From a candidate division TA06 bacterium SM23_40 (lineage in GTDB: Bacteria; LJUI01; SM1-40), in contig LJUI01000125.1 in NCBI GenBank assembly GCA_001303705.1, forward strand, positions 1 through 7,517: a DNA stretch of 7,517 bases, given 5' to 3'. The notes under the pieces were generated by a model that was given only the letters and a program-made list of their open reading frames with translations, was not told the DNA's origin and did not search any database. Made by a program: the position numbers and the translations under genes. Of the stretch, positions 1-7,517 are shown piece after piece. Position 1 is the first letter of the stretch, and each line of letters starts with the position of its first letter.

Positions 1-505
1 GGCAGCAGACCGTGGAGCAGAAGGGAGCGCCGGCATAGATATCACGGGAGCCGACGCACTGGATGAAGCCAATCCGCCGGGGGATCTGACCATCGAACGG
101 TCTCATCGGGAGGCCGCCGAACGGGCCGGAGAAACTGAGGATGCGCTCGAACTCCATGCTCGATACGACGTCGAGACTCAAGGAGTACCCCAGGCCCCGC
201 GCGCGGCTGGCATCGAACTCGCTCCCCCCCGGCGCGAGTATCACTGCACCTATATCAAGAGTTACCGTCTCCGGGATCTCATCATAGACGATTGCCCTGC
301 GATCGCACTCGGCGAGACAGAGCCCACACCCGATACACCGGCGGCAGGCGAGACAGCGGCGGGCCTCGGCTACGGCTACCTCCTGGACGAACCCGAGATC
401 GACCTCGGCGAACGGATCCTCTCGTTCCGTAGCCGGAGACTGCTGAGTTGTATGACGAGGAGATGGAATATCCTCGAAGTCAGGAACGAACTTCTTCTTC
501 TTCAT
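1..505 (-). CDS. HdrA-like protein, C-terminal half (FAD domain remainder), 3'-truncated by window edge
   Basis: The reading frame runs from ATG at 505-503 off the left edge, giving 168 visible residues. Residues 2-30 are a lysine/proline-rich linker. Residues 33-50 (FAEVDLGFVQEVAVAEAR) match the segment that normally follows a GltD/NfnB-type module and leads into an iron-sulfur site. Cysteines lie at 51, 54, 57, 60, 63 and 67 (CLACRRCIGCGLCLAEC), enough for one [4Fe-4S] cluster plus extras. Residues 83-94 (LDIGAVILAPGG) match the second strand of the HdrA FAD domain, and residues 150-168 (CVGSRDIYAGAPFCSTVCC) match the HdrA cluster motif. It has no GxGxxG nucleotide-binding start of its own; that part is encoded in the preceding gene. 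It begins 10 nt after that gene's TAG, in a frame shifted by one base. No well-spaced ribosome binding site is seen: GGGAGG lies 14 nt upstream and GAGGG only 2 nt upstream. It could be a true separate subunit, translationally coupled, or the tail of one gene broken by a frameshift. Confidence 0.85.
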   Translation of the reverse strand, partial: MKKKKFVPDFEDIPSPRHTTQQSPATEREDPFAEVDLGFVQEVAVAEARRCLACRRCIGCGLCLAECDRRAIVYDEIPETVTLDIGAVILAPGGSEFDASRARGLGYSLSLDVVSSMEFERILSFSGPFGGLPMRPFDGQIPRRIGFIQCVGSRDIYAGAPFCSTVCC

Positions 506-515
506 CGCCCTCGGC

Positions 516-2216
516 CTAACCTCCCGCCAGATACCTGGCCATCGCTGCCGCTGCCCGGTGGCCCGCGGCTATCGCCTCGATCACGGTCGCAGGCCCGGTC
601 ACTGCATCTCCACCGGAGAAGATACGCCGTCGATTTGTTTCACCTGTCTCCTCATCGACGATGAATGAACTCCACCGTGAGATATCGAGCCCGTGCTCCT
701 GGGGAAGGAAATCGAGATCCGGCTGCTGGCTGATCGCCGGGATGATCAGGTCACACGCGATCTCGAACTCCGAACCCTCAATGGGAATCGGCCGCCGCCG
801 GCCGCTCGCATCGGGCTTGCCCAGTTCCATTCTCGTTGCGATCATCCCGACCACTCTTCCCTGCTCCCCCAGAATCCTGACTGGCGCTGCCAGATAGTGG
901 ATGTCGATCCCTTCGTGCTCAGCCTCCTCGATCTCCCAGGGATTGGCGGGCATCTCGCGCCGCGATCTCCGATAGAGAATCGTCACCTTCTCGCACCCGA
1001 GCCTGAGAGCGGTGCGGGCGGAATCGATCGCTGAGTTCCCCCCTCCTACGACAATCACCCGATCGGCCGGCCTTGTGCGGTCACCCAGATTGACGCCGCG
1101 CAGAAACTCGACGCAGTCGAGGAGACCCTCATACTCTTCCTCGCCGGGGATCCCCAGCTTGAGCCCTCTGTGCGCACCTACCCCGAGGAAGACCGCACGG
1201 TAGCCATCGGCGAGGAGGTCGTCTATGGAGGGATCGGTCCCCACCTCGGTATTGAGCTTGATCTCCACACCGAGCGCCCGGATATAGTCGACTTCTGTCT
1301 CGATGATATCCCGCGGCAACCGGTACTCCGGGATGCCGAGGTACAGCATCCCGCCGGGCACCGGTGCTTTCTCGAAGACAGTCGACCCGTATCCCATCAG
1401 CGCCAGATCGTGTGCGACAGTGAGGCCTGCCGGCCCTGCCCCCACGATCGCCGCACGGGCCGAGTTCCGCCTAGCTGGCGGCTTCGGTGGTAACAGCTTC
1501 CCCTGACGTCGCAGCCCGAGTTCATAGTCCGCGGCGAACCGCTTTATCGCATCAATGGCAATCGGCTCATCCTCAGCGCCTCGATTGCAGGCCGCCTCAC
1601 AGGGATGATGGCACACACGTCCGCATACGGCAGGAAAGGGGTTCCGTTCCCGTACCGTCCGGAGCGCCTCTTCAAACCGGCCGCTCGCCACAAGGCCCAC
1701 ATATCTCCTGATATCGATATGGACCGGACAGGTCTGCTGGCAGATGGGGGTCTCCGTCTCGATGTTGAAATTTCCACATGGAGACCGTGGATTCTCGACG
1801 TCGATGGCGGTCCGGAGCCCGATTCCCTCGTTCTGCTCGTGGTAGATCTTGATGGGGCAGACCTGCACACACACGCCGCATCGATCGCACTCCTCTGTCA
1901 CGCGCAACGGATACTTGAGGATGTGGGCAGTGAATGCCCCCTTCTCTCCCTCCAGCTTGGTGAGTTCGGCGTTCGGGACGAAGGTGATGTTACGATGCCG
2001 GCGCACGCGGTCGATGAGCGGGGCGACCTCGCACGAGGCGGCCATATCCCCGGGATCTGCCCCAATCCTGTCAAGGCGTCCGGCAAGCCCTCCCATCGAC
2101 GGAAGCCGCTCGACGAGATAGACGCTCACTCCCATATCCGCCAGTTCGAGCGCGGAACGGAGCCCCGACACTCCGGCGCCCACGACGAGAACCGATGGAC
2201 TCTTCTCACCCGGCAC
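516..2216 (-). CDS. HdrA N-terminal half fused to GltD/NfnB-like NAD(P)H-FAD oxidoreductase module
   Basis: The protein is 566 aa if it starts at GTG 2216-2214. The start is supported by GGAGG 8 nt upstream and because homology begins at residue 8. Residues 8-60 form a Rossmann FAD-binding start (VVGAGVSG at 11-18, then the E...GG fingerprint). The HdrA NDCxxC motif is degraded: only Cys62 (AASCEVAP) remains, aligned with the last Cys/Sec of that motif. Cys110, 113, 116 and 120 (CDRCGVCVQVCP) make a [4Fe-4S] site. From about residue 155 a GltD/NfnB-type module follows: iron-sulfur cysteines at 159, 163, 198, 202, 206 and 210 (CGRVCHHPCEAAC), FAD motif VGAGPAG at 258-264, nucleotide-binding VGGGNSAID at 390-398, YRRSRREMPA at 415-424, and the FAD-closing GGDAVTGP at 535-542. 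Family knowledge: such modules pass electrons between NAD(P)H and flavin/FeS centres. The HdrA fold is not completed here; its remainder is in the next gene. The start overlaps the end of mvhD by 11 nt, implying coupled translation. Stop is TAG. Cofactor (NADH or NADPH) is not determinable by eye. Confidence 0.88.
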   Translation of the reverse strand: MPGEKSPSVLVVGAGVSGLRSALELADMGVSVYLVERLPSMGGLAGRLDRIGADPGDMAASCEVAPLIDRVRRHRNITFVPNAELTKLEGEKGAFTAHILKYPLRVTEECDRCGVCVQVCPIKIYHEQNEGIGLRTAIDVENPRSPCGNFNIETETPICQQTCPVHIDIRRYVGLVASGRFEEALRTVRERNPFPAVCGRVCHHPCEAACNRGAEDEPIAIDAIKRFAADYELGLRRQGKLLPPKPPARRNSARAAIVGAGPAGLTVAHDLALMGYGSTVFEKAPVPGGMLYLGIPEYRLPRDIIETEVDYIRALGVEIKLNTEVGTDPSIDDLLADGYRAVFLGVGAHRGLKLGIPGEEEYEGLLDCVEFLRGVNLGDRTRPADRVIVVGGGNSAIDSARTALRLGCEKVTILYRRSRREMPANPWEIEEAEHEGIDIHYLAAPVRILGEQGRVVGMIATRMELGKPDASGRRRPIPIEGSEFEIACDLIIPAISQQPDLDFLPQEHGLDISRWSSFIVDEETGETNRRRIFSGGDAVTGPATVIEAIAAGHRAAAAMARYLAGG

Positions 2217-3000
2217 GACACTCGCCTCCTGCCCGCTCCGCAACAGCTTGCCAGAGCGGCGTAGTCTCTTTGATGTCACCGATATCGGCCAGACCGAGTC
2301 TTCGCAACTCAGCAAGATGGCGCAGCACGATGGCCGGCCGCCGTCCCAACATCTTCGCCAGATCGGTCGCCGAAACACCCCCTACCCTGCCGTCTTGCAG
2401 GATATGCATTATGAGGTGTTTCGCGTATTCGTCACCTGCGACCTCCTCGAACAGCCGCCCCAGCTCATGTTCAGTGAACATCTCGCCGTACAGATTGCCC
2501 TCGGCGTTGAACGCCGTTGCCTTCCCCGCGATCCAGCGGAGCTTTTTCCCCTCAACCGCCGTCTTGGCTGCTCTGAGCCTGAGGGCGAGCGGAAGGGAGT
2601 CTCCTCCTCCTCCGTCCAGTGGCCCTAGCTCATCTATAGTCGCGACGAACTCCGAGACATATGAGACGAACTTGGCCCCCTCAGCTGAAGACATCATCCT
2701 GAGTACGAGCCTCGCTGGATCGATCCCCGACCGTGCGAGCACCCGGCGGGTCAGATCCATCTTGACCTTCGCCTCCAGATTGCCTGTCGAGTAGTGACAT
2801 TCCCCCTCCAGGCAGGTGCCCACGAAGACACCGTCTGCCCCGCCGGCGAATGCCTCGATGACGAATGAGGGGTCGACCCGGCCCCCGCACATGACCCGGA
2901 TGACCCGCACGTCTGTTGGATACTGGAGTCTCGCAACCCCGGCGAGATCTGCTGCTCCGTATGCTCACCAGTTACAGCAGAACGCGATGATCTTGCTCAT
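2206..3000 (-). CDS. mvhD: MvhD-family [2Fe-2S] electron-transfer subunit, selenoprotein (Sec12), with C-terminal winged-helix-like region
   Basis: Read through the UGA at codon 12, the gene is 264 codons from ATG 3000-2998 (AGAGGA ribosome binding site 7 nt upstream) to TGA 2208-2206. The first residues, MSKIIAFCCNW-U-AYGAADLAG, match the MvhD/FrhD/VhuD start, where the family has CCNWC followed by a small-residue run; Sec replaces the third cysteine. Cys38 (VMCGGRVDP), Cys63 and Cys68 (GTCLEGECHY) are the other cluster ligands. Family role: MvhD carries a [2Fe-2S] cluster and joins HdrA to an electron donor such as a hydrogenase, formate dehydrogenase or another HdrA. The protein is about twice the usual 130-150 aa. 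Residues about 195-252 (helical LIMHILQDG, then ATDLAKMLGRRPAIVLRHLAEL in two helices, then a GLA...PLW hairpin) look like a winged helix. It heads the second gene group and overlaps the next gene. Conventional calling would start at GTG 2910 and lose the first 30 residues, including three cluster ligands. Confidence 0.9.
2225..2229 (-). promoter_or_regulatory. Ribosome binding site for the HdrA-GltD gene
   Basis: GGAGG sits 8 nt before GTG 2216-2214, inside the last codons of mvhD. It decides the GTG start over the longer open frame (up to 2378), whose extra 54 residues overlap mvhD out of frame and show no family similarity. Confidence 0.7.
2920..2967 (-). promoter_or_regulatory. Bacterial-type SECIS hairpin of mvhD
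   Basis: Immediately 3' of the UGA the transcript can fold into a stem. ATACGGAG pairs with CTCC-A-GTAT (8 bp with one bulged A), there is a 7-nt bulge CAGCAGA on the 5' side, then TCTCGC pairs with GCGAGA (6 bp), closed by the 7-nt loop CGGGGTT. The loop starts 24 nt after the UGA and its second base is G. Both agree with the bacterial SECIS rules as I recall them (16-37 nt spacing, G among the first two loop bases). The element lies wholly within the coding sequence. Folding was judged by eye, not computed. Confidence 0.75.
2965..2967 (-). other. UGA selenocysteine codon, mvhD codon 12
   Basis: In-frame TGA inside the diagnostic MvhD motif CCNW-x-AYG, where the family has cysteine (and, as known for VhuD of Methanococcus, selenocysteine). 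Homology continues without a break on both sides, which argues against a pseudogene. Confidence 0.88.
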
Positions 3001-3013: not shown

Positions 3014-3112
3014 GAAAATCCACCGATGGCGATCGTCCCTTTCCCTTCCCCTCTACCCGTTCACATCCATGTATCTAGTTTCTATCAGTTGCTCACCCTC
3101 TTACTCACATCT

Positions 3113-3217
3113 CTCCGGTGAAGGTCTGTTCACGACTGACTCACCCTCAACTCTGGGGTGAAGCTCGAACCCGGCACTACGCCGCTCGATAACCTTCAAA
3201 ACCCAGGTACGTCCCCG
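3113..3217. repeat. 105-bp direct repeat, copy 1
   Basis: It aligns without gaps to 3246-3350, with about 12 mismatches by eye (roughly 89% identity). The two ends are almost perfectly conserved (CTCCGGTGAAGGTCTGTTCA at the left; CGCTCGATAACCTTC to ACGTCCCCG at the right), while the middle varies. The left end carries the inverted repeat GTGAA...TTCAC. A second inverted repeat in copy 1 (TCACCC...GGGTGA) is not kept in copy 2. Confidence 0.9.
3191..3217. repeat. 27-nt element, copy 1
   Basis: It begins AACCTTC and ends ACGTCCCCG with an AACC in the middle. The same length and anchors recur at 3324-3350, 3374-3400 and 3418-3444. A partial copy (GAACCTACCAACGTCCC) lies at 3230-3246. Confidence 0.85.
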
Positions 3218-3245
3218 TAATCCGATACAGAACCTACCAACGTCC

Positions 3246-3350
3246 CTCCGGTGAAGGTCTGTTCACGATTGACTCACCCTCATCTCTATCGTAAACCTCG
3301 AATCCGGGACTATCTCGCTCGATAACCTTCAAAACCCAGGTACGTCCCCG
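3246..3350. repeat. 105-bp direct repeat, copy 2
   Basis: Gap-free partner of 3113-3217, offset by 133 bp. The differences cluster in the central 50 bp, so the two ends appear to be the constrained parts. Its right end is also a copy of the 27-nt element. Confidence 0.9.
3324..3350. repeat. 27-nt element, copy 2
   Basis: Identical to the copy at 3191-3217. It forms the right end of the second 105-bp repeat. Confidence 0.85.
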
Positions 3351-3373
3351 CTCGACGGCCAGGATCATCCCGG

Positions 3374-3400
3374 AACCTTCTGAACCTACTAACGTCCCCG
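3374..3400. repeat. 27-nt element, copy 3
   Basis: AACCTTCTGAACCTACTA followed by ACGTCCCCG. It keeps the outer anchors but differs from copies 1 and 2 in the centre. It lies in a 36-bp unit, 3365-3400, that recurs at 3408-3444. Confidence 0.85.
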
Positions 3401-3401
3401 A

Positions 3402-3417
3402 CCGGGGTCATCCCCGG
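3402..3417 (-). other. GC hairpin just downstream of the long HdrA gene
   Basis: CCGGGG and CCCCGG form a perfect 6-bp inverted repeat around a 4-nt loop, 28 nt after the stop codon in the direction of transcription. It is not followed by a T-run, so it is a weak terminator candidate at best; it may instead be part of the repeat units around it. Confidence 0.4.
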
Positions 3418-3444
3418 AACCTTCTGAACCTACCAACGTCCCCG
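3418..3444. repeat. 27-nt element, copy 4
   Basis: Differs from copy 3 by a single base and ends one base short of the stop codon of the long HdrA gene (3448-3446), so the array begins right at the gene end. Confidence 0.85.
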
Positions 3445-3445
3445 G

Positions 3446-5125
3446 TTATTGTTGGAAGGCGGCGCGGATCTGGGCGACGAACTGCTCGTCTGTGAAGTGG
3501 CTCATCCGGATCGCCCTGCGATAGCAGCTCGCTCCGCACACTCCGCACCCTTTGCATGCTGCTTCGTGCATCTTCGCCTTCGGCCCACGGGGGGTTTCAA
3601 CGATTTCGATGGCGCCGTACGGGCAGAGATCCCGACATAAGCCACACCCTCGACAGAGTTCCTCATCGGCCAGGATGGAGATGAGCGGCTCTACGCATAC
3701 CGAACCGCGCATCAGGGGCACCGCCGCCCTGGCCGCAACACCGCGGGCCTGCGAGATGCTCTCCTCGATGCTCGCCGGCCACCGCGCGGTGCCGCAGACG
3801 AAGATCCCATCCGTTGCGAAGTCAAGGGGCCTCAGTTTCAGATGGGCCTCGAGAAAGAAGTGGTGCTCGTCCAGGGCGACTTTGAGCATCCTGCTCATCT
3901 CCTGTGCCCCCTCCGGCGCCACCAATGGGGATGAGAGGACGACGATATCAGGCGTGAGTTCGAGTGTCCGGGCCAGCACGGGGCCCCAGACGACAACGCG
4001 GCCGTCTTCCACGGCCGGGGGCGCATCGGGCGCATAGTTGACGAATCGAACACCGACCTCCTTCGCCTCCTGAAGCAACTGCTCGTACCTGACCCCGATC
4101 GTCATGAGATCGCGGTACAGCACCCACACTCTCGTGTTCGGATTGCGACGCCGCAGAAGAACGGCGTTCTTGAGCGCTGCGGCACAACAGATACGAGAAC
4201 AGTACACACGATCCGGCATCCTCGACCCGGCGCAGAGAATCATGACGACTTCAACCGCGTCCGGTCCTCCCGCTGCCAGCACTCGTTCGAACTCGAGCTG
4301 CGTGACGACACGCTCCCCGTCATACCCCATGATTCCCTCAGGGACGAGTTCATCTGCGCCGGTGGCGACGACTATGACGCCGACCCTGATAGGAGTGATC
4401 TCTCCGCCCCGCTGCCTCACCTGTACGTCGTACTTCCCGATATATCCTGCCACACCTGCCACCTCGCTGCCCACCAGAACGTTCACCCTGGGGTGCTCGC
4501 GAACCGCATTCGCCGCCTCCATCAGTATCTCCGATGCGGGCAGATCGGCGGGATAGATTGAATGGATGTGACGGAGCAACCCTCCCAGTTCCTCCTCGCG
4601 CTCCACGAGGTAGACCTCGCACCCCAGCTCGGCAAGATGGTAGGCTACCGTCATCCCCGCAATACCGCCCCCGATGACGAGAGCCCTCGGCTCGACTCCG
4701 ACGACGATCTCGTCTTTGGGCTCCAGAAAGGCAGCACGAGCTACCCCCATCCGCACCAGATCCTTCGCCTTCCCGGTAGCCGGCTCTGGCTCGCTTTTGT
4801 GCACCCAGGAGCAGTGCTCTCTTATGTTCACGAACTCGAACAGGAACTTGTTGAGTCCCGCATCCTGACAGGCGGCGCGGAAGATGGGCTCGTGAGTCCG
4901 GGGCGTACACGCCGCGACCACAACCCGATTCAGATCGTGCTCCTGAATGCCGCGGCGGATCTCGGCAACGCCGGCCTCCGAGCAGGTGAAGAGATTTTCC
5001 TGCACGAGAACAACGCCGGGAAGTCCCCGAGCATACTCGGCCACCTCAGCTGTGTCGAGAAAGCCGGCGATGTTCGTGCCGCATTTGCAGACGAAGACGC
5101 CTATCCGCAGTTCATCTTCCGCCAC
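3446..5125 (-). CDS. hdrA: Long HdrA-like protein with N-terminal HdrA domain and C-terminal 2x[4Fe-4S] ferredoxin
   Basis: 559 aa from GTG 5125-5123 (GGAG 7 nt upstream) to TAA. Residues 7-108 are the HdrA N-terminal domain (IGVFVCKCGTNIAG, FTCSEAG, AACTPRTHEPIF, REHCSW). Residues 147-185 form the FAD Rossmann start (VIGGGIAG at 150-157). Residues 298-314 (CAGSRMPDRVYCSRICC) are the HdrA cluster motif. Residues 491-501 and 524-534 are two CxxCxxCxxxC [4Fe-4S] sites, followed by the usual HdrA tail HFTDEQFVAQI. Compared with canonical HdrA (about 650 aa) it lacks the central ferredoxin insert, and the NDCxxC motif has become ADLPASE (194-199), with Glu199 at the Sec/Cys position. It therefore probably cannot supply that ligand and is likely to work with the short HdrA encoded 94 nt upstream. 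The layout recalls the HdrA part of QmoB without its MvhD domain. Cytoplasmic; no membrane segment or signal peptide is seen. Confidence 0.9.
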   Translation of the reverse strand: MAEDELRIGVFVCKCGTNIAGFLDTAEVAEYARGLPGVVLVQENLFTCSEAGVAEIRRGIQEHDLNRVVVAACTPRTHEPIFRAACQDAGLNKFLFEFVNIREHCSWVHKSEPEPATGKAKDLVRMGVARAAFLEPKDEIVVGVEPRALVIGGGIAGMTVAYHLAELGCEVYLVEREEELGGLLRHIHSIYPADLPASEILMEAANAVREHPRVNVLVGSEVAGVAGYIGKYDVQVRQRGGEITPIRVGVIVVATGADELVPEGIMGYDGERVVTQLEFERVLAAGGPDAVEVVMILCAGSRMPDRVYCSRICCAAALKNAVLLRRRNPNTRVWVLYRDLMTIGVRYEQLLQEAKEVGVRFVNYAPDAPPAVEDGRVVVWGPVLARTLELTPDIVVLSSPLVAPEGAQEMSRMLKVALDEHHFFLEAHLKLRPLDFATDGIFVCGTARWPASIEESISQARGVAARAAVPLMRGSVCVEPLISILADEELCRGCGLCRDLCPYGAIEIVETPRGPKAKMHEAACKGCGVCGASCYRRAIRMSHFTDEQFVAQIRAAFQQ

Positions 5126-5219: not shown

Positions 5220-6509
5220 CTACTTCCGACACACCACGATCCGGGCGGCCAGGGCAGCAGCCGCGCTCGCCTGGCAGACCGACTCCGGGATATCCGCCGG
5301 CCCGCGGCAGAATCCGCAGGCGAAGATGCCCTCCACACTCGTCTCCTCACCAGAGCGGCCATTGCCTCTGATGAACCCGTGCTCATCCACCTCCAGGGTC
5401 AATAGACGCGCGATCTCGGCCGTTCCCCTGCTGGGGACCGCCGCGGTCGCCAGAACGACGAGATCGACCGTGAGGCTGGAGACGGCGCCCGTCCTTGTGT
5501 CTTCAAACCAGAGCACAGGGTTGTGCTCGTCGTCTTCCGTGATCTCGGCCACTCTGCCTCGTATGTACTCTATCCCGTAGTCCTCCTCCCCCCGGATCTG
5601 GTACCGCTGGAACCACTTACCGGCATTGCGAAAATCAGTATGGAATATGTATGACATCGACTTCGGATCGTGCTCCCGCGCCAGCATCGCATCCTTGATC
5701 GAACACATGCAGCAGATACTCGAACAGTAGTTGCAGTAGCGCGTATCACGCGATCCGACACACTGGACGTACCCGACCCGCTCAGCCAGCTTCCCATCAG
5801 AGGGGCGGAGAAGGTGTCCCTGGGTCGGGCCGGTGGCATTGATGAGCCGCTCATACTCCAGGCCCGTGATCACGTTGGGGATCCGTCCGTACCCATACTC
5901 AACGAGCTGCGAGGGATCGAACAGATCGAGACCGGTGGCAACAACGATGGCGCCCACATCGAGCTCGACATCTCTCTCCGACTGCTCGAAGTCAATGGCC
6001 TCCCTCTCACAGACCCGTTCGCAGACACGGCACTTCCCTTTTTCGAAATATATGCATGCGTCAGGGTCGATTGTCATTACTGCCGGGATTCCCTGGGCGA
6101 AGTAGAGGTAGATGGCGCGCCGCTCCCGGAGCGTCATATCGAACTCGTCCGGAACCTTCTTGGGACACTTCTCGACGCAGAGGCCGCAGGCGGTACAGCG
6201 TTCTTCATCGACGTACCGCGCGCGCCGGCGCACCTTCACCCTGAAGTCACCGACTGATCCCGACACGTCGATGACATCGCTGTAGGCGAGGAGCTCAATC
6301 CTGGGATGCCGACCGGCATCCAACATCTTCGGCGCCAGGATTCATATCGAGCAGTCGTTCGTGGGAAAGGTCTTGTCGAGCTGGGACATCCGCCCGCCGA
6401 TACTCGGCTTCGATTCGACGAGGTGGACGTCGATCCCCATCTCGGCAAGATCGAGCGACGCCTGAATTCCGGCGATTCCGCCGCCTATCACCAGCACACC
6501 CTTACCCAT
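5220..6509 (-). CDS. hdrA: Short HdrA flavoprotein, selenoprotein (Sec56)
   Basis: Read through UGA at codon 56, the gene is 429 codons from ATG 6509-6507 (AGAGGA 8 nt upstream) to TAG 5222-5220. Residues 5-12 begin the Rossmann FAD-binding strand ([10 protein letters not shown]). [14 protein letters not shown] at 48-61 is the signature HdrA motif with Sec in place of its second cysteine. Two [4Fe-4S] sites follow: Cys105/108/111/115 ([12 protein letters not shown]) and Cys152/160/163/167, separated by [12 protein letters not shown], typical of HdrA. CVGSR at 250 with [10 protein letters not shown] to 267 is the HdrA cluster motif, and the FAD domain closes with [16 protein letters not shown]. 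It lacks both the N-terminal HdrA domain (about 140 aa) and the C-terminal ferredoxin; the next gene has both. Family role: HdrA holds the bifurcating FAD of Hdr complexes. The gene follows the HdrD-like gene by 38 nt, so the two are probably cotranscribed. Conventional calling would start at ATG 6326 and lose the FAD-binding motif. Confidence 0.92.
6298..6344 (-). promoter_or_regulatory. Bacterial-type SECIS hairpin of hdrA
   Basis: Directly after the UGA, ATCCTG pairs with CAGGAT (6 bp). A 14-nt bulge on the 5' side is followed by GGATGCC pairing with GGCATCC (7 bp, perfect) around the 4-nt loop GGTC. The loop begins 28 nt after the UGA, and its first two bases are GG. Spacing and loop composition fit the bacterial SECIS model, and the plan (lower stem, 5' bulge, upper stem, G-start loop) is the same as in mvhD. 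Folding was judged by eye. Confidence 0.8.
6342..6344 (-). other. UGA selenocysteine codon, hdrA codon 56
   Basis: In-frame TGA within NDCSI-x-ILAPK, where HdrA has NDCxxC followed by a short hydrophobic stretch and P-K. Selenocysteine in HdrA is established in Methanococcales and reported in some sulfate reducers. The frame and homology are intact for 55 codons before it and 373 after. Confidence 0.92.
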
Positions 6510-6547: not shown

Positions 6548-7517
6548 TCAGCCCTCCTTCAGGGCCTCGGCCAACAGACTGAGAAGATCCTGCATCTCGA
6601 TCTTCACGTCTGTGTCATCATTCCGCAACGCACATGAAAGATGTATCCGACACTTGGGGCAGGCAGTGATGAGATGTTCGGCTCCGGATGCCCCTGCCTG
6701 CCGCAGCCTCTCTACCTGGATCGCCTTGTTGGCCGCCGTGCAGTTCATCCATCCGCTCGATCCGCAGCAGATCGCATTCTCCATCGTCTCCTTCATCTCG
6801 ACGAGCTCGACCTCCGGCAACGCACGGATGAGCTCCCGCGGCTGCTCGTACACCCCCGAGAATCTCCCCAGCCGACACGGATCCTGGTATGTGACGATCC
6901 GGGGTGTCGGGCTGAATTCGAGACGCCCCTCCCTAACGGCCTCGACGAGCAGGTCGAAGATGTGGACGACCTCGACACCCAGGTCCCCGAGCTGCTCGGG
7001 ATACACCGCCTTGAGCATGTGATAGCACTCGGGACAGGATACGACGACCCTGCGCGCACCCGAGCTCCGGATGAAGTCGAGATTGCGGCGACCCAGTTCA
7101 CGAAACGTTTCGACATCCCCTGCCCAGAAGGGATCGTGCCCGCAACACCGCTCCTCATTGGAGACGATGGGCTGAATGCCGAGATGATTGAGGAGACGCA
7201 CAGTATCTCGCGCCGCCCCGGTCAGGCTTATCGACAGATCCTCGAAGATGGTATCGAAGTACGGAGCACACCCGACGAAGTAGAGATATTCCCCCTCAGT
7301 TGCCGTCTGCAACGTGTCGTCGATCCAGTCGAGTCTCCTCTGATCCAGGCCCCAGCCCTGGATCTCCATCATGTCCAGAACCACGCGCCCATGGGTATGG
7401 ACAGGGGCGCTCTCTCTGGCCGCCGACTCGACGCGCATCAGCCTCATGAACTCCGTGAACCCTACGCCTGCCGGGCAGCGGCCCTCGCAGGCCCGGCAGG
7501 TGAGGCAGGACCAGAGA
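6548..7517 (-). CDS. HdrD-like iron-sulfur protein with two CCG domains, 5'-truncated by window edge
   Basis: The frame is open to the right edge, giving 322 visible residues ending at TGA 6550-6548. The fragment starts inside a ferredoxin region: SCLTCRACEGRCPAG (Cys4/7/10/14), the last [4Fe-4S] motif of HdrC- or HdrD-type proteins. Two CCG domains follow. The first has Cys, 40 residues, CC (ERCCGHD), 35 residues, CPEC. The second has Cys (DPCRLGR), 35 residues, CC (AICCGSSG), 34 residues, CPKC. In HdrB/HdrD such domains bind the noncubane [4Fe-4S] clusters that cleave the heterodisulfide. The substrate here is unknown: bacterial relatives include BamD of benzoyl-CoA reductase complexes and GlpC/lactate-oxidation proteins. 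The internal ATG at 7447 is not the start, because the ferredoxin motif lies upstream of it. Whether a further ferredoxin motif or membrane segment precedes it cannot be seen. Confidence 0.9.
   Translation of the reverse strand, partial: LWSCLTCRACEGRCPAGVGFTEFMRLMRVESAARESAPVHTHGRVVLDMMEIQGWGLDQRRLDWIDDTLQTATEGEYLYFVGCAPYFDTIFEDLSISLTGAARDTVRLLNHLGIQPIVSNEERCCGHDPFWAGDVETFRELGRRNLDFIRSSGARRVVVSCPECYHMLKAVYPEQLGDLGVEVVHIFDLLVEAVREGRLEFSPTPRIVTYQDPCRLGRFSGVYEQPRELIRALPEVELVEMKETMENAICCGSSGWMNCTAANKAIQVERLRQAGASGAEHLITACPKCRIHLSCALRNDDTDVKIEMQDLLSLLAEALKEG

Follow-up and report, generated by a model that had tools for sequence, protein, structure and literature searches.

The mvhD gene of candidate division TA06 bacterium SM23_40 has a UGA in frame at its twelfth codon, which raises the question of whether this codon ends translation or is instead read as selenocysteine (Sec), as an earlier note on this DNA had proposed. 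The window, by which we mean the whole stretch of DNA analyzed (7,517 nt), is an entire contig, and all of its genes lie on the minus strand. Its features are as follows:

6548 to 7516, minus strand: CCG-domain Fe-S protein (HdrD/GlpC/BamD-like), the first operon gene seen, cut by the contig end
5220 to 6509, minus strand: hdrA1, with a UGA at codon 56 (6344-6342; NDCSIU, a CxxU motif)
6304 to 6321, minus strand: predicted SECIS hairpin of hdrA1, GGAUGCC[GGUC]GGCAUCC
3446 to 5125, minus strand: hdrA2, a second HdrA-like subunit, without an in-frame UGA
2206 to 3000, minus strand: mvhD, 264 aa followed by a TGA stop; a member of the FrhD/MvhD family (PF02662) that carries an HTH-like extension at its C-terminus
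2965 to 2967, minus strand: predicted selenocysteine, in-frame UGA at codon 12 (CNWU); Cys in eight paralogs of the same genome, UGA in orthologs from other phyla
2920 to 2962, minus strand: whole predicted SECIS, including the outer stem AUACGGAG/CUCC-A-GUAU; 51-nt MFE -13.7 kcal/mol
2929 to 2947, minus strand: upper hairpin of the predicted bacterial SECIS, UCUCGC[CGGGGUU]GCGAGA
516 to 2234, minus strand: gltD, a GltD-like NAD(P)H oxidoreductase downstream of mvhD; its frame is open up to 2378
2 to 505, minus strand: hdrA3, a partial HdrA-like gene cut by the contig end

When re-read from the minus strand, the start of mvhD is as the earlier note described it: the ATG occupies 3000-2998, AGAGGA lies seven nucleotides 5' of it, and CCNW-TGA-AYG spans codons 8-15. 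The protein begins MSKIIAFCCNW-UGA-AYGAADLAGVARLQYP, with FCCNW-UGA-AYG as codons 7-15; the frame upstream of the ATG is closed by an in-frame TGA two codons before it, and the gene ends with the TGA at 2208-2206. Residues 4-126 match PF02662 (E 5e-48; 162.6 bits against a gathering score of 22.3), and the remainder, residues 130-264, is an additional domain that matches an HTH weakly (HTH_5 scores 20.3 bits, slightly less than its cut-off of 22). Solved MvhD chains such as 5odc_D align a Cys to codon 12 (phmmer), and CNWU is the only CxxU motif in the protein. Its score against the VhuD equivalog NF045873 (131.2 bits) does not reach the curated cut-off of 215, and we therefore treat it as an MvhD-family protein that is related to VhuD, not as VhuD itself. 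The analogy with VhuD drawn earlier is nevertheless sound, given that PF02662 (MvhD/VhuD) is listed with CxxU in a selenoprotein catalogue, as is HdrA (NF040770) (PMC13188914).

Ten MvhD-like matches besides mvhD occur in the same genome, and eight of these paralogs have Cys at the codon-12 position, in a CNWC motif. One of the eight (L025, G000:C35:11030-11404) has a UGA at the first Cys of GCHxGxCHY, in GUHLGECHY, and this UGA has its own hairpin, CAUUACCU[GGA]AGGUAAUG.

Cys is the usual residue at codon 12, and a standard ORF listing yields an ORF at 2206-2910; both would fit a UGA that truly stops translation, or a Cys codon misread in sequencing, with an internal GTG at 2910 opening a protein of 234 aa. 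That reading, however, is already contradicted by the orthologs. A protein search returned nine closest orthologs from three other phyla (two of them represented by one genome each), full-length, with 50-59% identity and E <= 1e-50, and all nine have an in-frame TGA in mvhD; the next long match (G057, 39% identity) has Cys. The protein sequence upstream of the UGA is conserved: the earlier note had looked to whether homologs lack the first 30 residues altogether, and the orthologs from other phyla retain them, together with the in-frame UGA.

We also scanned the contigs of GTDB genomes for CNW-UGA with a loosely defined MvhD pattern after it, which gave at least 116 stretches. Among the GTDB matches listed, 114 of 117 CNW-UGA matches were MvhD, and their titles included Deltaproteobacteria/Desulfobacterales, Bacillota, Eisenbacteria, Gemmatimonadota, KSB1, Zixibacteria, Planctomycetota, Actinomycetota and others. 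Judged by sequence comparison, both the identity of the gene and the conservation of its UGA are established, and the recurrence of the UGA at this site is far beyond chance. More than 100 independent assemblies among the matches listed share a UGA at this codon, and we therefore regard a stop or a sequencing error as very improbable.

Seven MvhD genes of other bacterial genomes (L038, L053, L055, L075, L131, L132 and L135) contain two in-frame UGAs, as CNWU plus GGU/IGU; a review mentions multiple Sec residues in FrhD/VhuD for archaea only (PMC13188914). A further CNW-UGA MvhD gene (L057) lies on a contig labelled Bathyarchaeota and lacks a bacterial-type hairpin under the model used; either the gene is an archaeal one that encodes Sec, or its contig is possibly misbinned.

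In bacteria, Sec is decoded when SelB, together with GTP and Sec-tRNA, binds a hairpin and delivers Sec. The host assembly (2.88 Mb in 189 contigs, ~90% complete) contains a tRNA-Sec with a UCA anticodon (77.7 bits), adjacent selA and selB genes that both score far over cut-off, and, ~160 nt downstream of the tRNA-Sec, a selD over cut-off (G000:C58:439-1365, L180) that has one in-frame TGA. The earlier note had made its proposal depend on selABCD, and tRNA-Sec, selA, selB and selD are all in the genome; this complete machinery likewise speaks against a stop or an error at codon 12. We also considered the archaeal/eukaryotic SepSecS route and rejected it: SepSecS is below cut-off in the genome, so the bacterial SelA route applies.

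A UGA in frame within a conserved protein could also mean that the codon has been reassigned, or is read through by a tRNA for Trp, Gly or Cys instead of Sec-tRNA. This is the least probable of the readings we weighed. Both mvhD and the CCG gene themselves terminate in TGA, and since TGA is thus a working stop of mvhD, UGA does not serve as a sense codon throughout the genome and reassignment is rejected. In addition, the tRNA-Trp anticodon is CCA, the genome has a tRNA-Sec, and the UGAs fall at Cys/Sec positions of MvhD, HdrA and SelD, all of which are catalogued selenoproteins (PMC13188914). The same complete machinery, together with orthologs that keep the UGA, bears out the earlier proposal of Sec at codon 12, and we conclude from the compared genes that the mvhD UGA almost certainly inserts Sec instead of stopping translation.

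The hairpin that would guide this insertion was found as the earlier note described it, with a bulged stem, a 7-nt loop that starts at nucleotide 24 after the UGA, and G as the second loop base. Published limits for a bacterial SECIS are a loop of 3-9 nt, a stem of 4-16 bp, G in the first two loop bases, a spacing of 16-37 nt from the UGA and an MFE <= -7.5 kcal/mol (PMC13188914). The mvhD hairpin lies within these limits in loop (7 nt), stem (6 bp), second-base G and spacing (23 nt), although the upper hairpin alone has an MFE of -7.0 kcal/mol, just short of the -7.5 limit. By itself, the hairpin does not exceed what chance would give and is ordinary for GC-rich sequence: its z score is -0.34, 65 of 200 shuffles fold equally well, and an equal or better hairpin energy is reached by 35% of synonymous recodings and at 9% of window codon positions. 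It was thus too strong to suggest that this hairpin is conspicuous on its own. Given how often synonymous recodings reach equal energy, we rejected single-hairpin energy as proof of a SECIS. An Rfam scan for SECIS and other RNAs matched no SECIS family and gave chance matches only.

The hairpin is significant because it is conserved across orthologs, and not by its single-sequence fold. It occurs in the same place and with the same shape in 13 of 13 distinct mvhD orthologs, with all 78 of 78 cells paired; the outer stem is only partly retained among relatives. Six of the 13 have U-A as their outermost pair and the other seven have C-G; this pair joins the third position of an Asp codon to that of an Arg codon, and both changes are silent. 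Only one of the six hairpin pairs varies, and the covariation therefore rests on that one pair. The 3' arm requires an AGR arginine codon, which is found there in 74 of 80 UGA forms versus 9 of the 21 forms with Cys (p 2.5e-6 by Fisher test, without correction for relatedness), and the genes of the window use AGR for 49 of their 198 Arg codons. More distant UGA forms have a different hairpin, often CUGGA[GUU]UCCAG, with a G as one of the first two loop bases, at 26-27 nt. These comparisons support the mvhD hairpin as a candidate SECIS, and its silent covariation is a further point against a stop or an error.

A second recoding site within 3.4 kb, also on a family Cys, had been predicted earlier, and it is borne out by HdrA1, whose CSIU motif has its own hairpin and whose UGA lies 3.4 kb from that of mvhD. 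The hdrA1 hairpin is stronger than that of mvhD (51-nt fold z -2.70; 4 of 200 shuffles). The order CCG, hdrA1, hdrA2, mvhD, gltD, hdrA3 recurs in the ortholog loci as far as their contigs extend, and in the loci of the ortholog group hdrA1, where covered, and mvhD each contain a single stop; a Desulforhabdus locus (L058) outside the ortholog group differs. The six-gene order was found in Eisenbacteria, Zixibacteria, KSB1 and Gemmatimonadota as well as in the host lineage.

The gap between hdrA2 and mvhD spans 445 bp, compared with ~25-160 bp in most relatives. It contains two direct repeats of 116 nt (86% alike) at 3102-3217 and 3235-3350, as well as 32-nt repeats at 3369-3400 and 3413-3444; a ~30-nt repeat core occurs at ~30 places on many contigs of the genome, as a dispersed REP-like repeat.

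Our favored reading, to which we assign a probability of about 96%, is that mvhD encodes a selenoprotein of the FrhD/MvhD/VhuD family with SECIS-guided Sec at codon 12, probably acting in a bi- or confurcating complex. SelB and Sec-tRNA-Sec would read the codon 12 UGA as Sec, guided by the SECIS hairpin 23 nt downstream, and Sec would take the place of the second cysteine in the CNWC motif conserved in MvhD, a [2Fe-2S] electron carrier. We infer that MvhD probably joins the seleno-HdrA, HdrA2, the CCG protein and the GltD-like subunit in a flavin-based complex for electron bi- or confurcation that includes an NAD(P)H module. The [2Fe-2S] cluster of MvhD hands electrons to the FAD of HdrA (PMC6019823); electrons may take the same path here, and NAD(P)H is a likely partner in view of the GltD-like subunit.

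The UGA is very close to the start of mvhD and the distal genes are co-directional, so codon 12 might also serve as a selenium-dependent switch, at which low selenium would lead to an early stop and to less expression of gltD and hdrA3. M. maripaludis exchanges Sec and Cys isoforms with selenium status (abstract of PMC11097638). Such a switch would be an addition to Sec insertion and not a replacement for it, and gltD and hdrA3 may possess their own ribosome sites; we consider it unlikely. Somewhat less doubtful, and still tentative, is the idea that the conserved order of CCG, Sec-HdrA, HdrA, Sec-MvhD (with its HTH-like tail), GltD-like and HdrA-like genes encodes a distinct, uncharacterised, selenium-dependent and NAD(P)H-linked bi- or confurcating complex, possibly selenium-regulated via the early UGA.

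The earlier note had also likened mvhD to BamF of the benzoyl-CoA reductase complex as a reported selenoprotein. The likeness itself is reasonable: Geobacter BamF carries the annotation "hydrogenase, delta subunit; HTH" (PMC1924859), the host protein has its weak C-terminal HTH match, and BamD-BamE-BamF of the Geobacter class II enzyme follow the same order of cysteine-rich, FAD/FeS HdrA-like and delta-plus-HTH subunits (PMC1924859). In the host, by contrast, the HdrA part is split over two genes and the window is without bamB/bamC. Sec in BamF was not confirmed, in that the portions of the open literature on BamF consulted contain no statement of it.

Members of the FrhD/MvhD/VhuD family (PMC13188914, PMC9312934, PMC2933860) share with the host protein the domain, a Sec in place of the second CNWC cysteine and the pairing with HdrA; the host gene differs in that it is bacterial, with its predicted SECIS within the gene, an extra C-terminal HTH-like domain and no hydrogenase genes in the window. 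A 2006 count of bacterial selenoproteins included 19 FrhD and 16 HdrA, and the same study reported Deltaproteobacteria operons with glpC, doubled hdrA and frhD (PMC1794560). The glpC-hdrA-(hdrA)-frhD-frhG-frhA operons of Syntrophobacter fumaroxidans and other Deltaproteobacteria have in common with the host operon a CCG/GlpC-like gene, tandem hdrA, mvhD/frhD and Sec in hdrA and frhD (PMC1794560), whereas in the host GltD-like and partial HdrA-like genes replace frhG-frhA and the CCG gene is without a UGA. Desulfobacterium autotrophicum HRM2 has four Sec-MvhD genes as well as Sec-HdrA genes and, as here, hdrA followed by mvhD, Sec versions of both, and Cys paralogs, although in another phylum and with other neighbors (PMC2702500). 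Our finding leaves general knowledge of selenoproteins unchanged; it extends Sec use in HdrA-MvhD operons to a poorly sampled lineage, corrects a gene model where standard callers would truncate mvhD, and provides a clean set of orthologs whose predicted SECIS hairpin is backed by silent covariation. Sec use in the MvhD family has already been known for about two decades, and the host mvhD is a well-supported further case.
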